Assembly: GCF_932294415.1 (NCBI RefSeq)
Contig: NC_065535.1
Coordinates: 89,358,862-89,422,861, forward strand
Direction of reading: 5' to 3'
Origin: Quercus robur
Taxonomy: Eukaryota > Streptophyta > Magnoliopsida > Fagales > Fagaceae
Length of the DNA stretch: 64,000 nucleotides
The position numbers and the translations under genes are program-made. The notes under the pieces were generated by a model, which saw only the letters and a list, made by a program, of their open reading frames with translations, was not told where the DNA came from and made no database searches. This document shows, one piece after another, positions 651 to 36,138 of the stretch (positions are counted from its first letter, which is position 1; each line of letters begins with the position of its first letter).

Positions 651-3600
651 GTTGGCACCGTCTGTGGGAAGCATAGCACATTATCGCTTCCTAGACAAAA
701 GAGCTACATGGTACTCACTCGCTCAATGGCGACCACCAATGACGTTCAAGAAGAAGAAGCCCCTACGACTGCGCTTGAAAGACAGGTGAGGACACTCGCC
801 ACTGCCATGGAGCGCCTCACCAAACAAAACCACGACCTAGAAGAGCAACTGAAACAGAAAAATGCAGCTCCCAAAAACCAGGGAGCAGATCAGGAAGGAA
901 CCAGCGCCGACAGAAGAAACCAGGAGGGACCCTAGGCCAGCAACGCCCCGAGCAAACCGGAACGACAGAACATAAGCATCCCCTCCCTCGCAGAAACCAC
1001 TCCGCCACTTGTTATCGCGGAGATGCAGGCCATGAAGGAACAAATGGAGGTTATGATGAATGCTCTCAAGGGACGAGTATCAAGCGACCTTGACGACCTT
1101 GTCAACCGAACTGACTCGCTGTTCACCGCCACTGTCAACTCCTACCCATTACCAAGTAAGTTCCGCATGCCACAGATAGACAGTTACAACGGGGTCAAGG
1201 ACCCACTGGACCACCTGGAGACCTTTAAGACCCTAATGCACCTTCAAGGAGTAATGGACGCCATCATGTGTAGGGCCTTCCCTACAACACTAAAGGGCGC
1301 AGCCAGAATTTGGTTCAGCCGACTGACACCAAACTCCATTAGCACCTTCAAAGAGCTCAGCGCTCAGTTTACCGCACACTTCATTGGAGGTCATCGATAC
1401 AAGAAGTCTACGGCTTGCTTGATAAGTATGAAGCAGCGAGAAGATGAAACTTTAAGAGCCTACAACTCCCGCTTCAACAAAGAGGCACTCTCGATCGATG
1501 AAGCTGACAATAAGATACTTGTTGCAGCATTCACGAATGGCTTGAAGAAGGGTAAGTTTTTGTTCTCCCTATACAAAAACGACCCAAAGACCATGTCGGA
1601 AGTACTTTATCGCGCCACAAAGTATATGAACGCTGAAGATGCGCTGTTAGCTCGGGAAGAGAGGCCCAGGAAAAGAGAAAGGCAGGAAGACACTCGGCAG
1701 GACCAAGGCCGAAAGAAGGCAAGAACAAGAGACCGAAGGGACGAAAGGCACCCTAAGCCCCTGAGGGGAAGGTTCACGAGCTTCACTCCGCTAACAGCCC
1801 CAATAGATCAAGTCCTTATGCAAATCAAGGACGAAGAGGCTCTAACGTTCCCGGGAAAGCTGAAGAGTGACCTCAATAAACGTTCCCGGGATAAGTATTG
1901 CCGTTTCCACCGCGACCATGGCCACAACACGATTGATTGCTATGACCTCAAGCAGCAGATTGAGGCCCTTATCAGACAAGGAAAGCTGCAGAGATTCGTT
2001 AGCAAGGAGAAAGCGGATCCCCCCGCACAAGACCAACACCTCGACGGGACAATGAGCGACCGAGGCCCCCAATCGGGGATATAAGGATGATCGTAGGAGG
2101 AACGGCTGCCGCCGGGTCATCCAAGAAAGCCCGCAAGACCTATCTTTGGATGGTACAAAATGTTCAGCTGACGGGAGTCGTGCCGAAGATAGCACGAAGA
2201 GAAGGTCCCGTAATCGGATTCTCAAAAGAAGACGCGCGACGCCTTCACCATCCACATGACGATGCACTTGTCGTCAGCTTGCGTGTAGGAGACTACAATA
2301 TGCACCGGGTGCTGATCGACAATGGCAGTTCAGCAGATATCTTGTACTACACAGCGTTCCAGCAGATGAGGATCGACAGGGAGCGATTGATCCCAACAAA
2401 TGCCCCGCTTGTTGGCTTTGGCGGGAGCAGAGTATTCTCATTGGGCGCGGTCACATTATCCGTAATTGTGGGCGATTACCCTCAACAGATAGCAGGGACG
2501 TGACATTCTTGGTAGTCGATTGCTCGTTAGCCTACAACGCTATCCTCGGGCGACCCACGCTCAACTCATGGAAGGCGGTAACTTCCACCTACCACCTGAT
2601 GATAAAGTTCCCAACTGACTACGGAGTGGGGGAGCTGCGCGGGAGTCAGATGGCCGCGCGCGAATGCTACATAGCCATGATGGAAATGGAGGATCAGGTT
2701 CAGGCTTTAAGCATAGAAGAGCACCGGATGGTAACGGAGCCGGTTGAGAAGTTAGAAGAGATACCCCTTGACAGTTCTGATCCTGGCCGAACGACCAAAA
2801 TTGGAACGCTCGTTAACCCCACGGTCCGTCAGGAGCTCATAACCTTCCTCAGATGCAATCGGGACGTATTCGCGTGGGGTTATGAAGATATGCCGGGAAT
2901 AGATCCTTCAGTCATGGTGCACAGGTTGAATGTATCGCCTGCCTTTCCACCTATCAGACAAAAGAAGAGGGTGTTTGCCCTCGAGCGAGACCGAGCCATA
3001 GCAGAGGAAGTCAGAAAGCTACAGGAAGCAAGCTTCATTAGGGAAGTATACTATCCCGACTGGTTAGCAAATGTAGTAATGGTCAAAAAAGCGAGCGGGA
3101 AATGGTGGATGTGTGTGGACTTCACCGACCTTAACAAGGCCTGCCCCAAGGATAGCTACCCCCTCCCGAGGGTTGATGTCCTAGTAGACTCTACGGCCCG
3201 ACATCAGTTGCTGAGCTTCATGGACGCTTTTTCAGGGTACAACCAAATCCGAATGCACGAAGCCGACCAGGAAAAAACGTCGTTCGTGACCAGCCAAGGC
3301 CTCTTCTGTTACAAGGTCATGCCCTTCGGCCTGAAGAACGCAGGCGCAACGTACCAAAGGCTCATGAACAAAATGTTCGCGCAACAGATTAGGAGGAATG
3401 TCCAGGTCTACGTGGACGGCATGCTAGTAAAAAGCCGGAGGGAGGAAGATCATCTAGGAGATCTCAAAGAAACATTCGACACACTTCGCTCCTACAACAT
3501 GAAGCTCAATCCAGGGAAGTGTGCCTTTGGAGTGACGACAGGAAAATTCTTAGGATTCATGGTGTCTCAGAGGGGAATCGAGGCGAACCCAGACAAGATT

Positions 3601-4390
3601 CGGGCTATTATGGACATGGCACCACCAAGAAATGTGAAGGAGGTGCAAAGCCTCAATGGAAAGATAGCGGCACTAAATAGGTTCGTGTCAAGGGCAACGG
3701 ATAAGTGCTTGCCCTTCTTCCGAACATTGAAGAAATCCTTCGAATGGACTGACGAATGCTAGCAAGCATTCGAAGAATTGAAGGCTTACCTCTCCTCCCC
3801 ACCATTGCTGAGCCCGTCGCAGCCAGGAGAAGAGCTTTTTCTCTATCTAGCCGTCTCCCCCGTAGCCGTTAGCGCGGCCTTGGTCAGAGAAGAAGAGAGA
3901 GTGCAAAAGCTCGTGTACTACGCAAGCCGAGCACTTCACGGTGCCGAAGAAAGATACCCGCCCATGGAAAAACTTGCCTTTGCATTAGTTACGGCAGCCC
4001 GCAAGCTCAAACCGTACTTCCAAGCTCATACGGTGAACGTCCTAACTGACAAACCCTTACGGCGGGCAATGAGCAGCCCCAAGGCCGCGGGACAGTTGGC
4101 GTTATGGGCTATAGAACTGAGCGAATTTGATATTCAGTACCGCCCGCGGACCGCCGTCAAGGGACAGATCGTCGCCGACTTTATAGCTAAATTCACTCAT
4201 GACGAAGACAAGGGGGCAACAGAGTCCCCTCAATGGAGCATATATACGGACGGATTGTCCACCAGACAAGCAGCAGGGGCCGGCATTGTGCTACGATCGC
4301 CCGAAGGAGACACCATTGAATGTATGGTCCGTCTCGACTTCCCTGCCACCAACAATGAATCAGAGTATAAGGCTCTGATAGCCAAACATC
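81..4390 (+). mobile_element. Truncated Ty3/gypsy retrotransposon fossil, Tat-type lineage
   Basis: A fossil LTR retrotransposon. The 5' LTR (81-650) begins TGATG and ends CATCA and is followed at once by a primer-binding-like segment (651-670). Parts in order: gag (about 1.0-2.1 kb) with a retrotransposon gag domain and a CCHC-like zinc knuckle region, an aspartic protease (about 2.1-2.6 kb), reverse transcriptase (about 2.8-3.6 kb) and RNase H (about 3.75-4.39 kb). Gag and protease style resembles Tat/Ogre-type gypsy elements common in trees. Integrase and 3' LTR are not in the window. The element is broken: truncated at its right end, with roughly three or four interruptions of its reading frames. 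Age cannot be estimated because only one LTR is present. Confidence 0.93.
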
Positions 4391-4878
4391 ATTCATGCTC
4401 TCCTCTGTTACAAAGATAGCCAAGAATAAATTGACCCCCACGTCTTTAATAGTTACACCATGCGAGCCTCGCCATAGCTGTTGAAGAGTAGACTTGAGAG
4501 CCTCCTTATTAAAATTTTTATTGGTCTGCAATCTGCATAAAAGGCTAAACTGGGCATGTTGTTTAGAACCAGCTACATCTTGATAACTCACTGCTAAAAC
4601 TGCATTCTCCTCTTCAGAAAGCTTAAACTTCTTCCACAAGTCCTACATAGTCGCATCCATAATGAAACAAAACTAGATATTTCAAAGAAACACGTTCAAA
4701 AAGAAAAGGGAAAATAGGATGCACAAAGATGAAAGGTGAAAGAGGAATTAAGAAAAAGAAAAATCCCCTACTACGATCGGAAGAATAGACCGGAGAGGTT
4801 TGAATCTTACGTGATAAAATGCAAGTTAGGAGCTTTTACTTTCCAAGACTGCAGAGAGCCAGGGAGAGAAAAGTTATT
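4386..4878 (-). pseudogene. 5' fragment of a LINE (L1-type) ORF1 with DUF4283 domain
   Basis: Read on the minus strand from an ATG at 4660, the translation gives about 90 residues typical of the DUF4283 domain that opens the first ORF of plant L1-type LINEs (DLWKKFKLSEEENAVLAVSY, later LWRGSHGVTIKDVG and FLAIFVTEESMND). The sixth codon is a stop (TAG at 4643-4645), so the copy is dead. The stretch 4661-4878 upstream is probably LINE 5' untranslated sequence. Oddly it is the 5' end that survives, whereas LINE copies are usually 5'-truncated. Endonuclease and reverse transcriptase are absent because the fragment stops abruptly where the gypsy RNase H begins (about 4386). Confidence 0.75.
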
Positions 4879-15560: not shown

Positions 15561-16856
15561 TTAATTTACGGGTTTTCCGTGATTATAGCCGTAATAAGAA
15601 AGGTACCACCGAACAAACTTCTTCAACCCGGTTTGCAAATCGGTTGTGGGTTTATACCCGAGTTCACTTCGGGCCAAACTAATATTCGCATGAGTGAACG
15701 GAACGTCACCGTTTCCAGGCATATCCACAAGATTCCTCTTCGCTTTCGTCTTCAAATACCTCTCCAATATACTCACAAGTGTCGGTACGGTCACTGGTGA
15801 CGTGTTACCCAGATTAAAGATCCGGTACGGAGCGGGTCCCCGTTTCTTCCCACCCGACCCGGTACTTTTCCCGGACGTGTCCAAAGATCCCAGACAACCC
15901 TTCACAATGTCATCAATGTAAGTGAAGTCCCGGGCCAAGTCCACCCGGTTCTTGCCCCGATAGATCTTAATCGGTTTACCTTGGAGAATATTCCGGGTAA
16001 AAGAGAAGTAAGCCATATCGGGTCGTCCCCACGGGCCGTACACGGTAAAAAATCTCAACCCGGTAATGGAGAGGCCGTAAATGTGGTTGTAAGTGTGGGT
16101 AATTTCCTCACCAGCCTTTTTAGTAGCGGCGTAAAGACTTGCAGGTTGGTCGGTCCGATCCGATTCTGAAAACGGTACCTTTTCGTTTAACCCGTAAACC
16201 GAACTCGACGAGGCCCAAACAACCGACGGCTGAGGATTCGCCGATTTGCAAGCCTCGAGAAGCGAGACGAGTCCGGCGATATTGCTGTGCACATAGGAAT
16301 TTGGATTTTCCATAGCGTATCGAACTCCAGCCTGTGCCGCCAAATGCATCACGTGCGTAAAAGCCACGATGTCGAAAAGCTTCTCCAACATACGACCGTC
16401 GTTTATGTCTCCCTCCACGACGAAAATCCCGTGGCTGTCGAGGAGGGCCCTGCGGGCTTTCTTCAACGACGGGTCGTAGTAGTTGTTGAAGTTGTCGAGC
16501 CCAACGACGCCGTCTCCGCGCCTCTTCAGGGCGAGCGACACGTGCGTGCCGACGAAACCGGCGGCGCCGGTGACTAAAACGGACATGCCGCCGGATCTTC
16601 GGATCTGGGAGGAGACCCGCACTTGTTTCTCCCACTGGAGACCGCCCCACGAGGCGGTGAAATACTTGCTACCGGAATCGACGAAACTCTGGAAACTCAA
16701 ATACGACGCCGTTAATGCAATCAAGAAGAGTGCCCACAAGAACATGGTGCTCGTAGAAGCGAAACAGCGGTGGAATTGACGGTTCATGCTGTGGGCCCGG
16801 TCGATCTTGAACTTCCCAGGCGTTGATGGGAACAGTTCTTCCTGTAAAGAAGGCAT
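15561..16856 (-). CDS. UDP-glucuronate 4-epimerase (GAE), Golgi membrane protein
   Basis: 431 residues in one exon. The enzyme converts UDP-glucuronate to UDP-galacturonate, the donor for pectin synthesis, and sits in the Golgi. The N-terminus has a cytosolic tail and one membrane anchor (about residues 36-57). The catalytic part is an NAD-dependent short-chain dehydrogenase/reductase fold: the GxxGxxG dinucleotide motif at G97-G100-G103, a serine-rich stretch at 216-219 and the catalytic pair Y242 and K246 (YAATK). FFTVYGPWGRPDMA and FTRNILQGKPI are hallmark stretches of plant GAE proteins. Length and lack of introns match the Arabidopsis GAE family (about 430-460 residues), and the N-terminal MPSLQEELFPSTPGKFKIDR start resembles GAE1. 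GC content is far above the flanks, as expected for an intronless coding region. It looks intact. Isoform number cannot be fixed without a tree. Confidence 0.97.
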   Translation of the reverse strand: MPSLQEELFPSTPGKFKIDRAHSMNRQFHRCFASTSTMFLWALFLIALTASYLSFQSFVDSGSKYFTASWGGLQWEKQVRVSSQIRRSGGMSVLVTGAAGFVGTHVSLALKRRGDGVVGLDNFNNYYDPSLKKARRALLDSHGIFVVEGDINDGRMLEKLFDIVAFTHVMHLAAQAGVRYAMENPNSYVHSNIAGLVSLLEACKSANPQPSVVWASSSSVYGLNEKVPFSESDRTDQPASLYAATKKAGEEITHTYNHIYGLSITGLRFFTVYGPWGRPDMAYFSFTRNILQGKPIKIYRGKNRVDLARDFTYIDDIVKGCLGSLDTSGKSTGSGGKKRGPAPYRIFNLGNTSPVTVPTLVSILERYLKTKAKRNLVDMPGNGDVPFTHANISLARSELGYKPTTDLQTGLKKFVRWYLSYYGYNHGKPVN

Positions 16857-30040: not shown

Positions 30041-30519
30041 CACTACAAAACGCGGGAGCCTTGGGCCGCGTTTTTTAAGCCGTGGCTATAAAAAACGCGG
30101 CCCAAGATAGACTGAAGCCACGTTTCATAAAAACGGGGCCATAGACGGGTTCTTAGGCCGCGTTTTTTAAGCGGGGCCATAGACAGGTTCTTAGGCCGCG
30201 TTTTTTTGAGCTAAAAATGCGGCCTAAGGACCTCCGTATTTTATTTTTTGGCAAACTTTTTTTTTTTCTTTTCCTTAACTGTGGCCGCATTTTAAAAACG
30301 GGGCCACAACCTTAGGCCGCGTTTTAAACGCGGCTATAGGACCTGGTCTTGGGCCGCGGTTAAAAAGTGTGGCCATAGGACCGTGAGTCCTATAGTCACA
30401 GGTTTTAGGCCACACTAGAAAGCGTGGCCTAAAAAAACGCGGTTATAGGCTATAGCCACGTTTTTTTGACATATGGCCACGTTTTAAAAACGCGGCCATA
30501 GAACATTTTTTTTGTAGTG
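30041..30519. mobile_element. CACTA (En/Spm) miniature element
   Basis: 479 bp beginning CACTACAAAA and ending TTTTTTTGTAGTG, flanked by AAG on both sides (30038-30040 and 30520-30522), the 3-bp target duplication of CACTA transposons. About ten copies of GGCCGCGTTTTT-like motifs in both orientations fill the body. These would be the subterminal transposase-binding repeats, but here they cover nearly the whole element. No coding capacity. Confidence 0.92.
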
Positions 30520-30542: not shown

Positions 30543-30628
30543 GGGGAAAAATTCTTAGATATTCTCAGAGTACAAAGAAATATTGCTCTATTCTTTTACA
30601 TTCACGATAGACTCCACCATAAATTTAA
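30543..30628 (+). mobile_element. MITE, left part (split by the Helitron)
   Basis: Together with 35303-35376 this makes a 160-bp MITE flanked by ATTTATAG (30535-30542 and 35377-35384). A second, unbroken copy lies at 42693-42851 and shows the original continuity across the insertion point. Confidence 0.85.
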
Positions 30629-30846
30629 CTAGTCGCAAACCCGTGCGATGCACGAGTAACTTTTAACTCAAAATGTTAACATGTTCAAGTTTAAATATTT
30701 ATCTAATTTCAACTATTTTAAAGTTAAATCGTCTCCAATATGAAATGGAGAGAAAGTAATTAAACATCTCGTATGACAAATTGTCAAAATTTTAAACGTC
30801 TTTAAAAATGAGAAACATCCAAATTTTATATAGTAATATATTACAT

Positions 30847-30872
30847 AGTCACTAACCCGTGTGATGCACGGG
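30847..30872 (-). repeat. Second Helitron-like 3' terminus inside the Helitron
   Basis: TAGTCACTAACCCGTGTGAT followed by GCACGGG closely matches the true 3' end at 30630-30657. It is either an older terminus bypassed when a new end was acquired or the tail of another Helitron. Confidence 0.65.
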
Positions 30873-30880
30873 ATTGTTTT

Positions 30881-31876
30881 TGTTAAATATTAGCATTGAT
30901 ACACCATGTTGAATATGCTAGTATAGATGCGGAAGCGAAAGCATAAAGTATAAAACACAATAACACACTAGGGTTACGTGGTTTAGCCTAACGGCCTACA
31001 TCCACGGAGGAAACCCTAAAGGGCTACATTAATAATATATTAGAATGTAGTACAAATCCTGTGTTACAATGAATCATAACATGTGTATATATAGTAGACT
31101 AAACCCTAGACTAATAGACTTCTAGTACAAGTAGGAGACTTGACTTGCACACAAAGTAGAATTAGGCTTGGGCCTATGCTAATGGGCTAATATATCTCTA
31201 ACACCCCCTCTCAAACTCAAGATGGAAGCTTGATGAAATCTTGAGATTTGATAAGGTTGAAAAGATTCCTTAAATGAAGTTTGGCTCTGTAACGGTAGTT
31301 TGACAAAAGCAATGGTCTTGCAGTGTTGATGCGACTTCTAATGGTGGCTTGACTATACCGGAGAGTTTTGACGGCAGTAGTAGGAAGCCAAAGAAGATGA
31401 ACGCAGCGAAAAAAAAACACCGAGGAAGACAAAGATTGCTCTTAAATATACCGCAAGGACAGAAAACCATGGCCACAAGAAGGTGGCTCTGATACCATGT
31501 TAAATATTAGCATTGATACACCATGTTGAATATGCTAGTATAGATGCGGAAGCGAAAGCATAAAGTATAAAACACAATAACACACGAGGGTTACGTGGTT
31601 CAGCCTAACGGCCTACATCCACGGAGGAAACCCTAAAGGGCTACATCCACGGAGGAAACCCTAAAGGGCTACATCCACGGAGGAAACCCTAAAGGGCTAC
31701 ATTAATAATATATTAGAATGTAGTACAAATCCTGTGTTACAATGAATCATAACATGTGTATATATAGTAGACTAAACCCTAGACTAATAGACTTCTAGTA
31801 CAAGTAGGAGACTTGACTTGCACACAAAGTAGAATTAGGCTTGGGCCTATGCTAATGGGTTAATATATCTCTAACA
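30881..31876 (-). mobile_element. TRIM-type miniature LTR retrotransposon, looks young
   Basis: 996 bp with 5-bp target duplications GTTTT (30876-30880 and 31877-31881). LTRs at 30881-31203 (323 bp) and 31498-31876 (379 bp) begin TGTTA and end TAACA. The 56-bp length difference equals two extra copies of a 28-bp unit in the second LTR. The primer-binding site TGGTATCAGAGCCA (complementary to initiator tRNA-Met) abuts the right LTR on the minus strand, and a purine-rich tract (about 31203-31212) abuts the left LTR, so orientation is minus. The internal region is about 295 bp and has no gag or pol, as normal for TRIMs. Outside the 28-bp expansion the LTRs differ at only about three sites, which suggests insertion within roughly the last million years. 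The structure looks whole. Confidence 0.92.
31618..31701 (+). repeat. Triplicated 28-bp unit in the right TRIM LTR
   Basis: CTACATCCACGGAGGAAACC plus CTAAAGGG occurs three times in tandem here and once in the left LTR (near 30987). Limits are approximate. Confidence 0.85.
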
Positions 31877-33357
31877 GTTTTAAATCAAATGTTAACATGT
31901 TCAGGTTTAAACATTTCTCTAATTTTAATTATTGAAAGCTAAATTAACTCTAATATAAGATGAAACATGTAATTATGATGAAACTATCAAAATATTACAC
32001 ATAAGATAAATACAAATATTATGAAGTAATATATTACAATAATCATAATGTGCTCTTACATTTGGTTGAATAAGCATTACAAAAGAACCAGTAAATAGAA
32101 TAAATATACAATCATGCTTACATCTTCAAGCTTTATCCAATGCTTTTCAAGAATCTATTTCCTCCCTTTCTTAGGCTGTTCTCTTTTCTCAACTTCTTCA
32201 AGCTACTTTATTTTTTGCCAAATTAGTATCAAGTATAACACCAAATTATACCAATTCATCAAAGATTTACAATGTATAACCAAACACTCTTAATGTCAAT
32301 AAATTTCATAATAACCCCACCCCAACTATTGAATTATTAAAAAAGTTCAATACGTCTATAATCTTCATGAAAATAAGTATTCCATTGGTTTTCATCATGA
32401 AATTCAAAAATAAATAACAAAATAGATTGTTTACACACAAAAAGGTATTATCTTTTTGTGAAACATTTTTAAATTGTACCTATATGGTTTTATTCAAAAA
32501 TTAAGAATACAAAAGCCACAAATCTAGATATTTATGGCATTTAGTTCAAGTGCCAAACCAAAACTAAAGGCATGCCTAAGTACCGTTCACAAAGGCTTTG
32601 TGGCATTGCACAATGTAGGGATGTGTGATTAAATAATGCATATATATTTGTATGCTTCAATAAGTTGCAAGGGTACCAAACAACAATGATTTATGAACAA
32701 CACACTTGGTTGCATTCTAGCAGCAGTAGTAGCAGGAGTAGTATTAGTAGTTGTAGCTCTAACAAACTAAAAGTACAATACACATTCACACACCAAATAT
32801 TTAAAACATTAAATACAAGGCCCTACAGATGGCACAACAGCCCACATATTTGGTATGAAAAATGCTTCTATATGGAGAAAATGTCATCTGATAATTCACC
32901 TATTTTTAACTTCCAAACTGTGCATTGGAAGATGGAAATTAGGTATTACAGCTGCTTGTGGAGACCTACACTTTGCGTTCCTACCTCATAGCAACAGAGA
33001 AAATGAAATTGGCAAAACAGAGTTTTTGGCAAGAAGACTTGGCCCCTTTCTCAAGTTTCATCATTTGCTTAATTACTTGGAAAAAATAGAAAGAAAACTA
33101 AACTAATGTTCCTTCTTTAATTTTCGCTTCCTTCGTTTTCTCAACAACCAAACAAATCAAGAAAGGATCACATAACAGATCTACATTCTACAACCACATA
33201 TCCATTCCATGAATTCAATTCTGCTGAAAGAAACAAACAAAAAAACACATTCTTTATCCTCAAAGAGAAAATTAAACAAAAGCATAAGAACATCGAATCA
33301 CAAATTGAAACAAAGAAGAGAGAGAGAGCGAGAGAGAGAGAGAGAGAGAGATAATAC

Positions 33358-33456
33358 CTTAGCAAGATTGACATAGAAGAAGAGTGGTTTCTTGGTGTTG
33401 GAAACCTGAATTCGATTCCTCTTCTGAAGCTCAGTGGGTGCAGTTGATTGAATTTG
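33358..33456 (-). pseudogene. Captured exon of an Alba-type DNA/RNA-binding protein gene
   Basis: 99 bp with an acceptor (TTTTAG, upstream) and donor (GTATTA, downstream) encoding 33 residues, including RNRIQVSNTKKPLFFYVNLA. This is the conserved start of the Alba domain in short plant Alba proteins of the At2g34160 type. The next exon (expected KRYMQQHNEVELSALGMAIA region) was not found downstream on the minus strand. The exon itself is undamaged. It is Helitron cargo, not a gene. Confidence 0.85.
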
Positions 33457-33671
33457 CTAAAATATGAAAGAGAGAGCAATGCAGCCAATAATTGAAAATA
33501 GCACTACTGGCTCCAAACCCATCAATCTATGCTAATCACTCCCAAACGTAGCCCTAAATCATACTTAACAGCCAAAACCAATAGAACAAAACCCAAAATC
33601 AAAACCACAAATTTACTCCAGATAAAGAGAATAGGTAAGGGGGAAAACCTAAAATTAAAATAAAAACCCAA
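33427..33671 (-). repeat. Alba intron/exon segment, repeat copy A
   Basis: About 245 bp covering the end of an Alba intron and the start of the exon. It is repeated at 34507-34750 (copy B) and in part at 34751-34875 (copy C), all in the same orientation and over 95 percent identical by eye. Confidence 0.85.
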
Positions 33672-33925
33672 TTGCATTCTAATCTATAATCTTGGGATCC
33701 AATTCAACAATCTTACAATTATTCAATCTTCCTCTAAATATTTACTCAGAATAAAACAACCCCCAAGTTGCTAACACAAGCTTGACAATTGAATTCACCA
33801 ACATAACCATCATATCATAAATGCAAATATCTTAATAACGTGATCCAACATCAAATTCCACACGGCATTGCTTCAAAGTACAAAAAAAAAAAAAAAAAAA
33901 AAAACCTAATTACCCACAAACTGAC

Positions 33926-34268
33926 CTGATGGTATCCAGGCGATAAGCCATAAACAGTTTGAAACACATTATCACAATTCTCAACGGGCAACATCGGCAC
34001 AAGCTGAGCCCACCTTCACAAAAACAAAAGCACTTCCAATTAAGCACTTTTTCAATAAGTAAAAACTAAACTAAACTAATAGAATTCTATAACAATCAAA
34101 TAAAAAGTGAAAAAATAAAACCAAAATAAAATCAGAGACTCACTGAGTGAAAGAGCCACAAAGAAAAACACTGTTTCCACCATGTCTCCAAACGAACCGC
34201 ATTGGGATTAACACTGTGCCCGGAACTGCGGCTTCTTCCGGCACAGAATTCATGTTCGGCGAAAACAT
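33926..34268 (-). pseudogene. Captured exons 1-2 of an SNF4/AMPK beta-gamma-like gene
   Basis: Exon 1 (34144-34268) and exon 2 (33926-34013) are separated by an intact GTGAGT..AAG intron and give 71 residues. The translation includes VPGTVLIPMRFVW, GNSVFLCGSFTQ, WAQLVPMLPVENC and VFQTVYGLSPGYHQ. This is the N-terminal carbohydrate-binding (AMPK1_CBM) domain of plant sucrose-nonfermenting-4-like proteins, subunits of the SnRK1 energy-sensing kinase. The domain stops after GYHQ at a GTCAGT donor, and the CBS domains of the full protein are missing. ATG, phase and splice sites are all intact, so capture was recent. The cargo has the same orientation as the Helitron. Confidence 0.88.
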
Positions 34269-34506
34269 TTACCCCTGAATTTTTCAACAAATCAACTTTC
34301 TTCTTCTTCTTCTTCTTGCCTTTTTTTTTTTTTTTTTTTTTTTTAACACCCCGCTCGCTTTATCTATTTACCATAACAAAACCCAAAAAAAAAAAAAAAA
34401 TCAAAGCAAATTCGCTGCAATTCAGTACAATCCCTAAAAAATACAATAACCAAACCCTAAAAAAGTTCAAAATTTTTCAAAAGAATGAAAAACCCCAATC
34501 ACTGCC

Positions 34507-34875
34507 TGAGGCTCAGTGGGTGCAGTTGATTGAATTTGCTAAAATGTGAAAGAGAGAGCAATGCAGCCAATAATTGAAAATAGCACTACCGGCTCCAAAC
34601 CCATCAATCTATGCTAATCACTCCCAAACGTAGCCCTAAATCATACTTAACAGCCAAAACCAATAGAACTAAACCTAAAATCAAAACCACAAATTTACTC
34701 CAGATAAAGAGAATAGGTAAGGGGGAAAACCTAAAATTAAAATAAAAACCCAAACGTAGCCCTAAATCATACTTAATAGCCAAAACCAATAGAACAAAAC
34801 CCAAAATCAAAACCACAAATTTACTCCAGATAAAGAGAATAGGTAAGGGGGAAAACCTAAAATTAAAATAAAAAC
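34507..34875 (-). repeat. Alba intron/exon segment, repeat copies B and C
   Basis: Copy B (34507-34750) repeats copy A including the intron acceptor and the first ten codons of the exon. Copy C (34751-34875) repeats only the intron part, in tandem with B. Confidence 0.85.
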
Positions 34876-35302
34876 ATCACTAACCATTCTTTAAAATGCC
34901 AAGAGATGAAGCCCATGTAGAATTTGATCTTCCATAGGGTTTCCCTAGGTTCAACAAAGCCAACATCGTTCAAATCCTCAGTAGACTGCCTTTCCGTGGT
35001 GGCGGCAATCCGTGGTGGTAGCAATTTGTGGCGGTGGCGGTGACGATGGGAGAATCTGAGTTTTGGGTTTTGATTTTGGAGGAAGGAAAGGGTGAGTTTT
35101 GGGTTTAGGGGAAGGAGAAGTTTGCGTCTGAGAAGAGAAGAGAGAGGTATCGGTTTTTGTAAGGTTTTGTAACGTGTATTTGGTTAAGAAAAATTAGATT
35201 TATTTTAAATCAAATTTAATAAATTTAAAAAATAGAAAAAAAAATGCTGACGTGGAAAATTGTGGAAGCTTCAAAAGTTTCGGTTTTATATATATATATA
35301 GA

Positions 35303-35376
35303 TGAATGAACCCTATTATAAATGTGAGAGGAAGAAATATCATTCTTGATGCTCAAAGAGTACTTAAAAATTACTC
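35303..35376 (+). mobile_element. MITE, right part (split by the Helitron)
   Basis: Right portion of the MITE described at 30543, followed by its ATTTATAG target duplication (35377-35384). Confidence 0.85.
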
Positions 35377-35458
35377 ATTTATAGCATGCTCCAAATATAA
35401 AAACCATTCGCTTAAACTACTCATAAGAAAATAAGTAATGGTTTCTAATAATTAGAGG

Positions 35459-36138
35459 TAGGGATGGCAATGGGGCGGGGCGGGGCCAAAAGATGGGGTC
35501 TTTGTCCCTGCCCCGCATGGTTTTGTCTTATCCCATCCTTGCTTGCCTCGCATGACGAGAAAAACTTTCTAACCCCATCCCCTCCCATTGGGATCCCATG
35601 AAGTCTCACCCCATCTTGTAAAACTCTAATTTTTGTTAATTTGCTTTACAACTAGTACAATTTTTTTAATGAAACTTATTTCATTAATAAAAATATGCTT
35701 GAAATTACAACTAAATTTATCCCATTAAATCAAATCAATTTTTAGAAAAAAATTAAATAATATATCCAAGCGTTTAACAAGATAATCACAAAAAAAAAAA
35801 ATCTCATAGTATAACACATAACAAAATAAAGGCAGAGAACTACATTGGGTAGAATAAAATAAGTTAATATTGATATATTTGTTTAAATAGTAGGGTTTTA
35901 GGGTATGAAAAATTTACAATTATAATCTTTAGCAACGCTGGGCGGGGCGGGGCGGGGCGGGGCGGGACGGGATGGGACGGGTCTAAAAAGTCTAAACCCA
36001 TCCCCGCTCCGCCCTGTGGTGCGGGACTAAAATCTTGCCCCATCTCCGCCCCACCATATTTGAGGAGTGGAAAAAACCCGTGTGGGGCAAAGTGGGGAGG
36101 AGCGAGTTAAGCGGAGCGGGACAAAATTACCATCCCTA
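35459..36138. mobile_element. GC-rich non-autonomous hAT element, copy 1
   Basis: 680 bp, TAGGGATGGCAATGGGGCGG to TTACCATCCCTA, flanked by perfect 8-bp duplications ATTAGAGG (35451-35458 and 36139-36146). Both ends are made of GGGGCGGGGC-type repeats and the middle is AT-rich. The paralogue at 37684-38334 is in the same orientation. Confidence 0.92.

Follow-up and report, generated by a model that had tools for sequence, protein, structure and literature searches.

Gene capture by plant transposable elements is covered by a 2026 review (PMC13317346), and in maize, Helitron loci are known to produce chimeric transcripts (PMC4528327). Maize also offers cases in which the CTAG of one Helitron directly abuts the TC of the next, so that a G/T junction results (PMC2267711). 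Experiments have demonstrated that a Helitron 3' end can be bypassed, and 39 of 395 copies of the Myotis Helibat carry 3' ends that arose de novo (PMC4778049). The present work concerns a 64,000-nucleotide stretch of the Quercus robur genome (C2:89358862-89422861 in our contig numbering, hereafter the window), in which a Helitron of 4,674 bp occupies positions 30629-35302. This element contains pieces of an ALBA gene and of a SNF4-like gene, and it has two consecutive 3' ends. At a probability of roughly 80%, it is the outcome of a stepwise build-up, in which a non-autonomous Helitron acquired the ALBA and then the SNF4 pieces, as well as a double 3' end, and finally received a nested terminal-repeat retrotransposon in miniature (TRIM), the gene pieces being neutral passengers.

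The interval 30629-35302 is a real non-autonomous Helitron on the minus strand, and all its features described below lie on that strand. Its 5' terminus, TC(TA)n (35287-35302), has TC at 35302 beside a host A at 35303 and reads A|TCTATATATATATATAAAACCG (host A to the left of the bar), while the 3' end reads CTCGTGCATCGCACGGGTTTGCGACTAG|T (host T to the right of the bar), with CTAG at 30629-30632 and the host T at 30628. Subtraction of the nested TRIM and one copy of its target-site duplication (TSD) leaves 3,673 bp. Both ends had been claimed in an earlier, sequence-only reading of this DNA, together with an A|T target; a host A and T do flank the window copy, and likewise a second copy (L009), at a separate site. 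The hairpin claimed in that reading is predicted at about 30639-30657, within the outer 3' terminal unit of 217 bp (30629-30845). It is weak in the window copy (-5.8 kcal/mol, with 11 of 200 shuffled sequences folding as well), and takes a perfect form in L009 (-9.2 kcal/mol, 0 of 200 as good).

The genome searched comprises 785.7 Mb on 42 contigs. With the outer 217-bp unit as query, 40 of 158 candidates were scored, giving 44 matches, and 14 loci were cut out. In all nine copies read (the window included), CTAG followed by T is exact and the flanks are all different; L064-L067, also among the 14, lie outside these nine, and in a tenth locus, L063, the first 30 bases of the terminus are missing. 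With the 5' region, the best 40 of 1,447 candidates were scored and 14 loci cut out, of which 12 were read, L029 and L030, which stop short of the 5' terminus, being left out. Of these 12, nine (that of the window among them) have TC(TA)n at the 5' boundary, and L028, L031 and L039 lack it; in L028, L034 and L039, the CTAG of another Helitron adjoins this boundary. The element ends are thus common to other Helitron copies. The 5' region at 34876-35302 is also common to other family members, and the body at 31882-33057 is partly so.

Of the ALBA gene, the window retains intron 1 pieces together with the final 86 bp of exon 1. These are an intron 1 fragment at 33058-33357 (about positions 5000-4707 of L013, a gene on contig C3), the 3' part of exon 1 at 33358-33443 with its own donor (GT at 33356-33357), and a second, out-of-order intron 1 fragment at 33665-33752 (matched by L013 as far as 33723 and by the related Helitron L012 as far as 33752). 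A genome search with 33340-33460 gave 11 matches from 11 candidates, namely four Helitron copies twice each (once for a duplicate), L012, L013 at 90% and L014, a more distant ALBA-like place, at 79%. The gene is identified as ALBA because the spliced product of L013 carries an Alba domain (PF01918, E 9.5e-14); the 33-residue ALBA fragment alone matches no Pfam family, and the single exons of the gene give no Alba match in Pfam. With its matching intron, L013 is the best candidate for the ALBA parent.

The related Helitron L012 is collinear with L013 over 1.74 kb, introns included (3073-4816 against 6420-4622, 84.8%). Five more ALBA-bearing loci (C38:20.05M, C41:6.51M, C40:52.83M, C37:34.88M and C38:22.68M, where an insertion of about 8 kb seems to have split the locus) hold later parts of the gene, their longest pieces at 86-93%; the exon 1 query (33340-33460) matched none of these five. 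In all six ALBA-only loci, the ALBA match ends on one side at L013 6420-6440, a common boundary that suggests a single ALBA capture, and a genome search with 33905-34270 brought up no SNF4 match in these loci. Finally, L070 (C1) has both Helitron termini and no ALBA. It shares with the window the Helitron segment H (33444-33671), in which the acceptor-like TTTTAG (33457-33462) is located. TTTTAG|CAAATTCAATCAA, which stands ahead of the ALBA piece in the window, is found also in L070, where it runs into unrelated sequence; exon 1 of the C3 gene carries the start codon and has no acceptor at the position of the Helitron's acceptor. The Alba exon "with both splice sites" of the sequence-only reading is therefore a chimeric junction: the exon 1 tail and its donor stand, and the acceptor is not that of ALBA. 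The idea of a complete Alba exon that brought its acceptor along was accordingly rejected, the acceptor at 33456/33457 sitting in non-ALBA sequence shared with L070.

The SNF4-like capture (33751-34505) comprises part of intron 2, exon 2 (33926-34013), intron 1 with GT..AG borders (34014-34143), exon 1 (34144-34268) and the upstream region, so that the two exons and the intact intron of the earlier claim are both present. The search with 33905-34270 gave 5 matches from 5 candidates, i.e. the four Helitron copies and C6:47042980-47043344 (99%). The full homology, 33751-34505 against C6:47042724-47043496, is collinear via intron 1 into intron 2. On this alignment, the cargo is one contiguous genomic piece, intron included, from the candidate donor gene on C6. 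The captured peptide matches AMPK1_CBM (PF16561, E 1.2e-10, for a query peptide typed with one extra R) over profile positions 1-48 of 85, and the domain is thus incomplete. At the C6 locus, the next exon continues the same domain (PF16561, E 7.6e-7), and a CBS domain is absent from the Pfam matches of single open frames further down the gene. The window copy shows 19 differences from the C6 donor in 736 gap-free sites. Twelve substitutions relative to the donor are common to all four copies, as is a 26-bp deletion, and this sharing argues for a single SNF4 capture with amplification afterwards. With a candidate parent of matching intron sequence for each gene and with shared ends, neither of the two outcomes that the earlier reading had named as refuting it arose. 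Its central proposal, a Helitron that captured ALBA and SNF4-like pieces, is supported, and the two pieces do lie in the Helitron's orientation.

Beside the window, three loci carry both gene pieces: L009 (C37), L010 (C35) and L011 (C5), whose longest pieces are 96.5%, 97.5% and 97.5% identical to the window element over 3,215-3,466 bp. L010 has an additional 5' piece of 336 bp at 92% identity, and the L011 match reaches only 35121 inside the stretch fetched. Pairwise Kimura two-parameter distances among the four copies, which sit on four contigs, are 1.3-2.3% (3,213-3,342 sites). In L009, both Helitron ends are intact, at another A|T site; L010 and L011 have good 3' ends.

The internal order of the element differs from that of L012. 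On the window plus strand, L012 reads ALBA intron piece, ALBA intron/exon, H and 5' region; the window reads intron/exon, H, intron piece, SNF4, exon tail, H', 126-bp repeat and 5' region. The segment 34506-34753 is a duplicate of 33424-33671 (98%) and contains the ALBA exon 1 tail and H, and at 34623-34875, a 126-bp unit in two tandem copies (97%) represents a further local duplication of H. The intron 1 fragment at 33665-33752 is the start of the second unit of the internal duplication. This arrangement is most simply explained by a tandem duplication whose second unit was filled by SNF4, the downstream ALBA exons being lost at 33058/33061.

Nested in the Helitron at 30881-31876 is a gene-less long terminal repeat (LTR) retroelement, which we take to be a TRIM. 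Its LTRs (30881-31203 and 31498-31876, of 323 and 379 bp) show 3 differences in 323 aligned sites. What is presumably its primer-binding site, TGGTATCAGAGCC, lies at 31485-31497, a purine tract is located at about 31204-31212, and the whole is flanked by the 5-bp TSD GTTTT; no open reading frame of at least 130 residues was found within 30881-31876. The other three copies pass straight from 30880 to 31877, and the missing TRIM points to a late insertion. This nested element, the internal duplications and the second 3' end go beyond the sequence-only reading.

The inner, former 3' terminus (30846-30880) ends in GACTA, the last G of CTAG being missing, and is joined to the outer unit. Its predicted hairpin at about 30856-30872 (-7.1 kcal/mol in the window, 3 of 200 shuffles as good) is perfect in L010 and changed in L009 and L011. 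The ALBA-only relatives end at this inner terminus, with CTAG in four of the five loci read and TTAG in one; L012 has lost the inner-type 3' end. In all four copies with both gene pieces, GACTA is joined to TGTAATATATTAC of the outer unit, and the joint GACTA+TGTAATATATTACTATA has four exact-pattern occurrences genome-wide, all in these copies (reversed control, 0). The outer 217-bp unit is the terminus of another Helitron subfamily (L058-L062). At the position of the joint, on the Helitron strand, L058, L059 and L062 read ATTA|TGTAAT and L060 reads ATTA|TGCAAT, i.e. a proper A|T target (L061 is not among the joint-site sequences shown).

The history that we favour would have begun with the capture, by a family member, of a piece of the ALBA gene (about 1.8 kb in L013 coordinates). 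In one lineage, the block of ALBA intron, exon and H would then have been tandemly duplicated, with loss of most ALBA exons, and a 773-bp SNF4-like piece from C6 would have taken the place of part of the second block, probably having served as filler DNA when a break was repaired or replication restored. A literature search returned nothing on filler DNA with microhomology, nor on orientation with splice sites. Before, between or after the duplication and the SNF4 replacement, the element's own 3' end, without its last G, would have become linked to the 217-bp terminus of a second Helitron subfamily. Transposition would now stop at the outer CTAG, so that both 3' ends would travel together, and the composite would have reached at least four places, RepHel presumably being supplied in trans; the TRIM would have entered the window copy later. 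The parts, their junctions, the candidate parents and the relations among the copies can be read from the alignments, and from these we infer the order of the duplication, the SNF4 replacement and the 3' end change, the filler mechanism, the joining of the ends, the supply of RepHel in trans and the lack of function.

It should be noted that several observations weigh against this history. The outer hairpin is weak in the window copy, and two of the other copies have irregular 5' ends: that of L010 adjoins another Helitron and its TC end is missing, and a candidate 5' end for L011 (L037), which we take to be its own, is located about 5.8 kb further. The ALBA cargo is more diverged than the SNF4 cargo, the C3 gene differing from the captured ALBA pieces by 7-16%, and the gene actually captured may have been one to which L013 is a sister. 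In addition, because the exon 1 query matches L012 alone among the ALBA-only loci, it is L012 and the four copies that document the exon 1 side of the capture.

As to how the two 3' ends came together, we regard the choice as near even between nesting at an A|T target followed by loss of the G and read-through, on the one hand, and a one-step switch within the shared TA, on the other. The first would be a natural terminator bypass in a plant, in which the change of CTAG to CTA, with the hairpin kept, would have sufficed for transposition to run on to the CTAG of the next Helitron, the composite then moving to at least four sites; we put it at somewhat less than an even chance. The joint lies within one base of the former end, as an insertion into ATTA|TGTAAT at its A|T would lead one to expect. 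This speaks against the alternative, in which recombination or template switching at a short similarity fused the ends and ordinary transposition followed. This fusion is as tentative, its chances falling a little below one half. Opposite the GACTAG of the inner end, L058, L059 and L062 have GATTATGTAAT, and a switch within TA would yield the observed GACTATGTAAT in one step. Moreover, the match with L058-L062 extends 11 bases beyond the joint, to 30856, and a nested ancestor of the form CTA, one base and TGTAAT, which the exact genome pattern would have allowed, was not found. Since the similarity continues past the joint, fusion at a short similarity is also conceivable, and together with the one-step route this lowers the odds of read-through, raises those of fusion and slightly reduces confidence in the history as a whole.

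A different alternative concerns function. When SNF4 exon 2 (phase 0) of the window copy is joined to 33456, a frame of 71 + 33 residues stays open and continues for 19 residues beyond the ALBA donor, and maize Helitrons do produce chimeric transcripts (PMC4528327). The Helitron might thus be creating a functional chimeric gene, in which splicing would link SNF4 exons 1-2 in frame with the ALBA piece. This appears very unlikely, considering that the in-frame chimera is open in one of the four copies, that of the window; stops interrupt it in L009 at the acceptor and the exon 1/2 junction, and in L010 and L011 within ALBA. The acceptor comes from neither captured gene, and both domains are truncated, the ALBA piece holding about 20 residues of an incomplete Alba domain, so that complete RNA-binding or glycogen-binding domains were rejected. 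When the four copies are pooled, 22/852 site comparisons in exons and 63/2,092 in noncoding sequence differ from the SNF4 donor; the counts are small and the copies share ancestry, but the closeness of the two values fits neutral decay, and constraint on the captured exons was rejected on these figures. The gene pieces are most likely neutral passengers, and the "exon shuffling in progress", uniting an RNA-binding with a glycogen-binding domain, that the sequence-only reading had seen here is not supported, given the truncated domains, the foreign acceptor, the stops in three of four copies and the similar divergence of exons and noncoding sequence. A possible third captured exon was also considered at 34880-35000, where the minus strand is open and exon-like and ends in FVEPRETLWKIKFYMGFISWHFKEW; no Pfam family was matched, and the stretch sits in the 5' region shared with family members.

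That the four copies spread by segmental duplication or ectopic recombination instead of transposition is the least probable alternative and hardly credible, since, although only four SNF4-bearing copies diverged by 1.3-2.3% were found, homology ends at CTAG|T with differing flanks in 9/9 copies read, 5'-family homology ends at or near TC(TA)n, and the copies lie on four different contigs.

Other features were noticed around the Helitron. The 5' flank at 35303-35380 gave 41 matches (the window included) when the best 40 of 53 candidates were scored, the others at 76-86% and most ending at query positions 71-82; this repeat-like flank indicates that the Helitron probably inserted into an older repeat. 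The stretch 35460-36000, which starts with GGGATGGCAATGGGGCGGGGC and contains short G/C-rich tandem repeats, may be the end of another transposable element. A small element at 30041-30519, about 110 bp away from the Helitron 3' end and presumably a CACTA-type miniature element, is bounded by CACTACAAAA...TTTTGTAGTG and flanked by the 3-bp repeat AAG. Farther away, open frames for Gag, reverse transcriptase and RNase H of an LTR retrotransposon lie at 1023-4419, and an open frame of 431 residues on the minus strand at 15561-16856 encodes an NAD-dependent epimerase (PF01370, E 4.3e-51), which we assume may be a UDP-glucuronate epimerase gene.

The locus is a detailed example of a known phenomenon that has left unusually complete traces, and the double 3' end is its most interesting part. 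Intermediates (ALBA-free, ALBA-only and ALBA plus SNF4), candidate donors and a 3' end change are present in one genome, with junctions readable at base level, and such intermediates help to reconstruct gene capture by Helitrons; the birth of a new gene is not demonstrated by these loci. If read-through is true, it suggests that CTAG itself, and not the hairpin alone, matters for ending transposition.

Like the gene-capturing Helitrons of maize (e.g. Hel1-331/332/333), the oak element has TC..CTAG ends, a 3' hairpin and a host A and T at its flanks, as at an A|T target, and it carries intron-bearing fragments of unrelated host genes with possible chimeric splicing (PMC4528327, PMC2267711). Unlike them, it can be set beside a candidate donor for each capture, and loci with no ALBA, with ALBA only and with ALBA and SNF4 coexist. 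The head-to-tail Helitrons of maize have a counterpart in L034, where at about position 1818 a CTAG adjoins the apparent 5' end of another Helitron; L046 shows a similar, maize-like arrangement at about position 2280. In contrast to such pairs, two 3' ends of the same direction are found here inside one mobile unit. In this respect, the element resembles Helraiser and the Myotis Helibat, which retain a former 3' end internally and terminate at a CTAG downstream of it (PMC4778049). However, in the one natural exemplar described there, the bypassed CTAG lies in a right terminal sequence without a palindrome (PMC4778049), whereas the inner hairpin is perfect here in L010, and in the window copy folding is still predicted for it. 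A further difference is that the four oak copies share the missing last G, and that their new end resembles that of a second Helitron subfamily.

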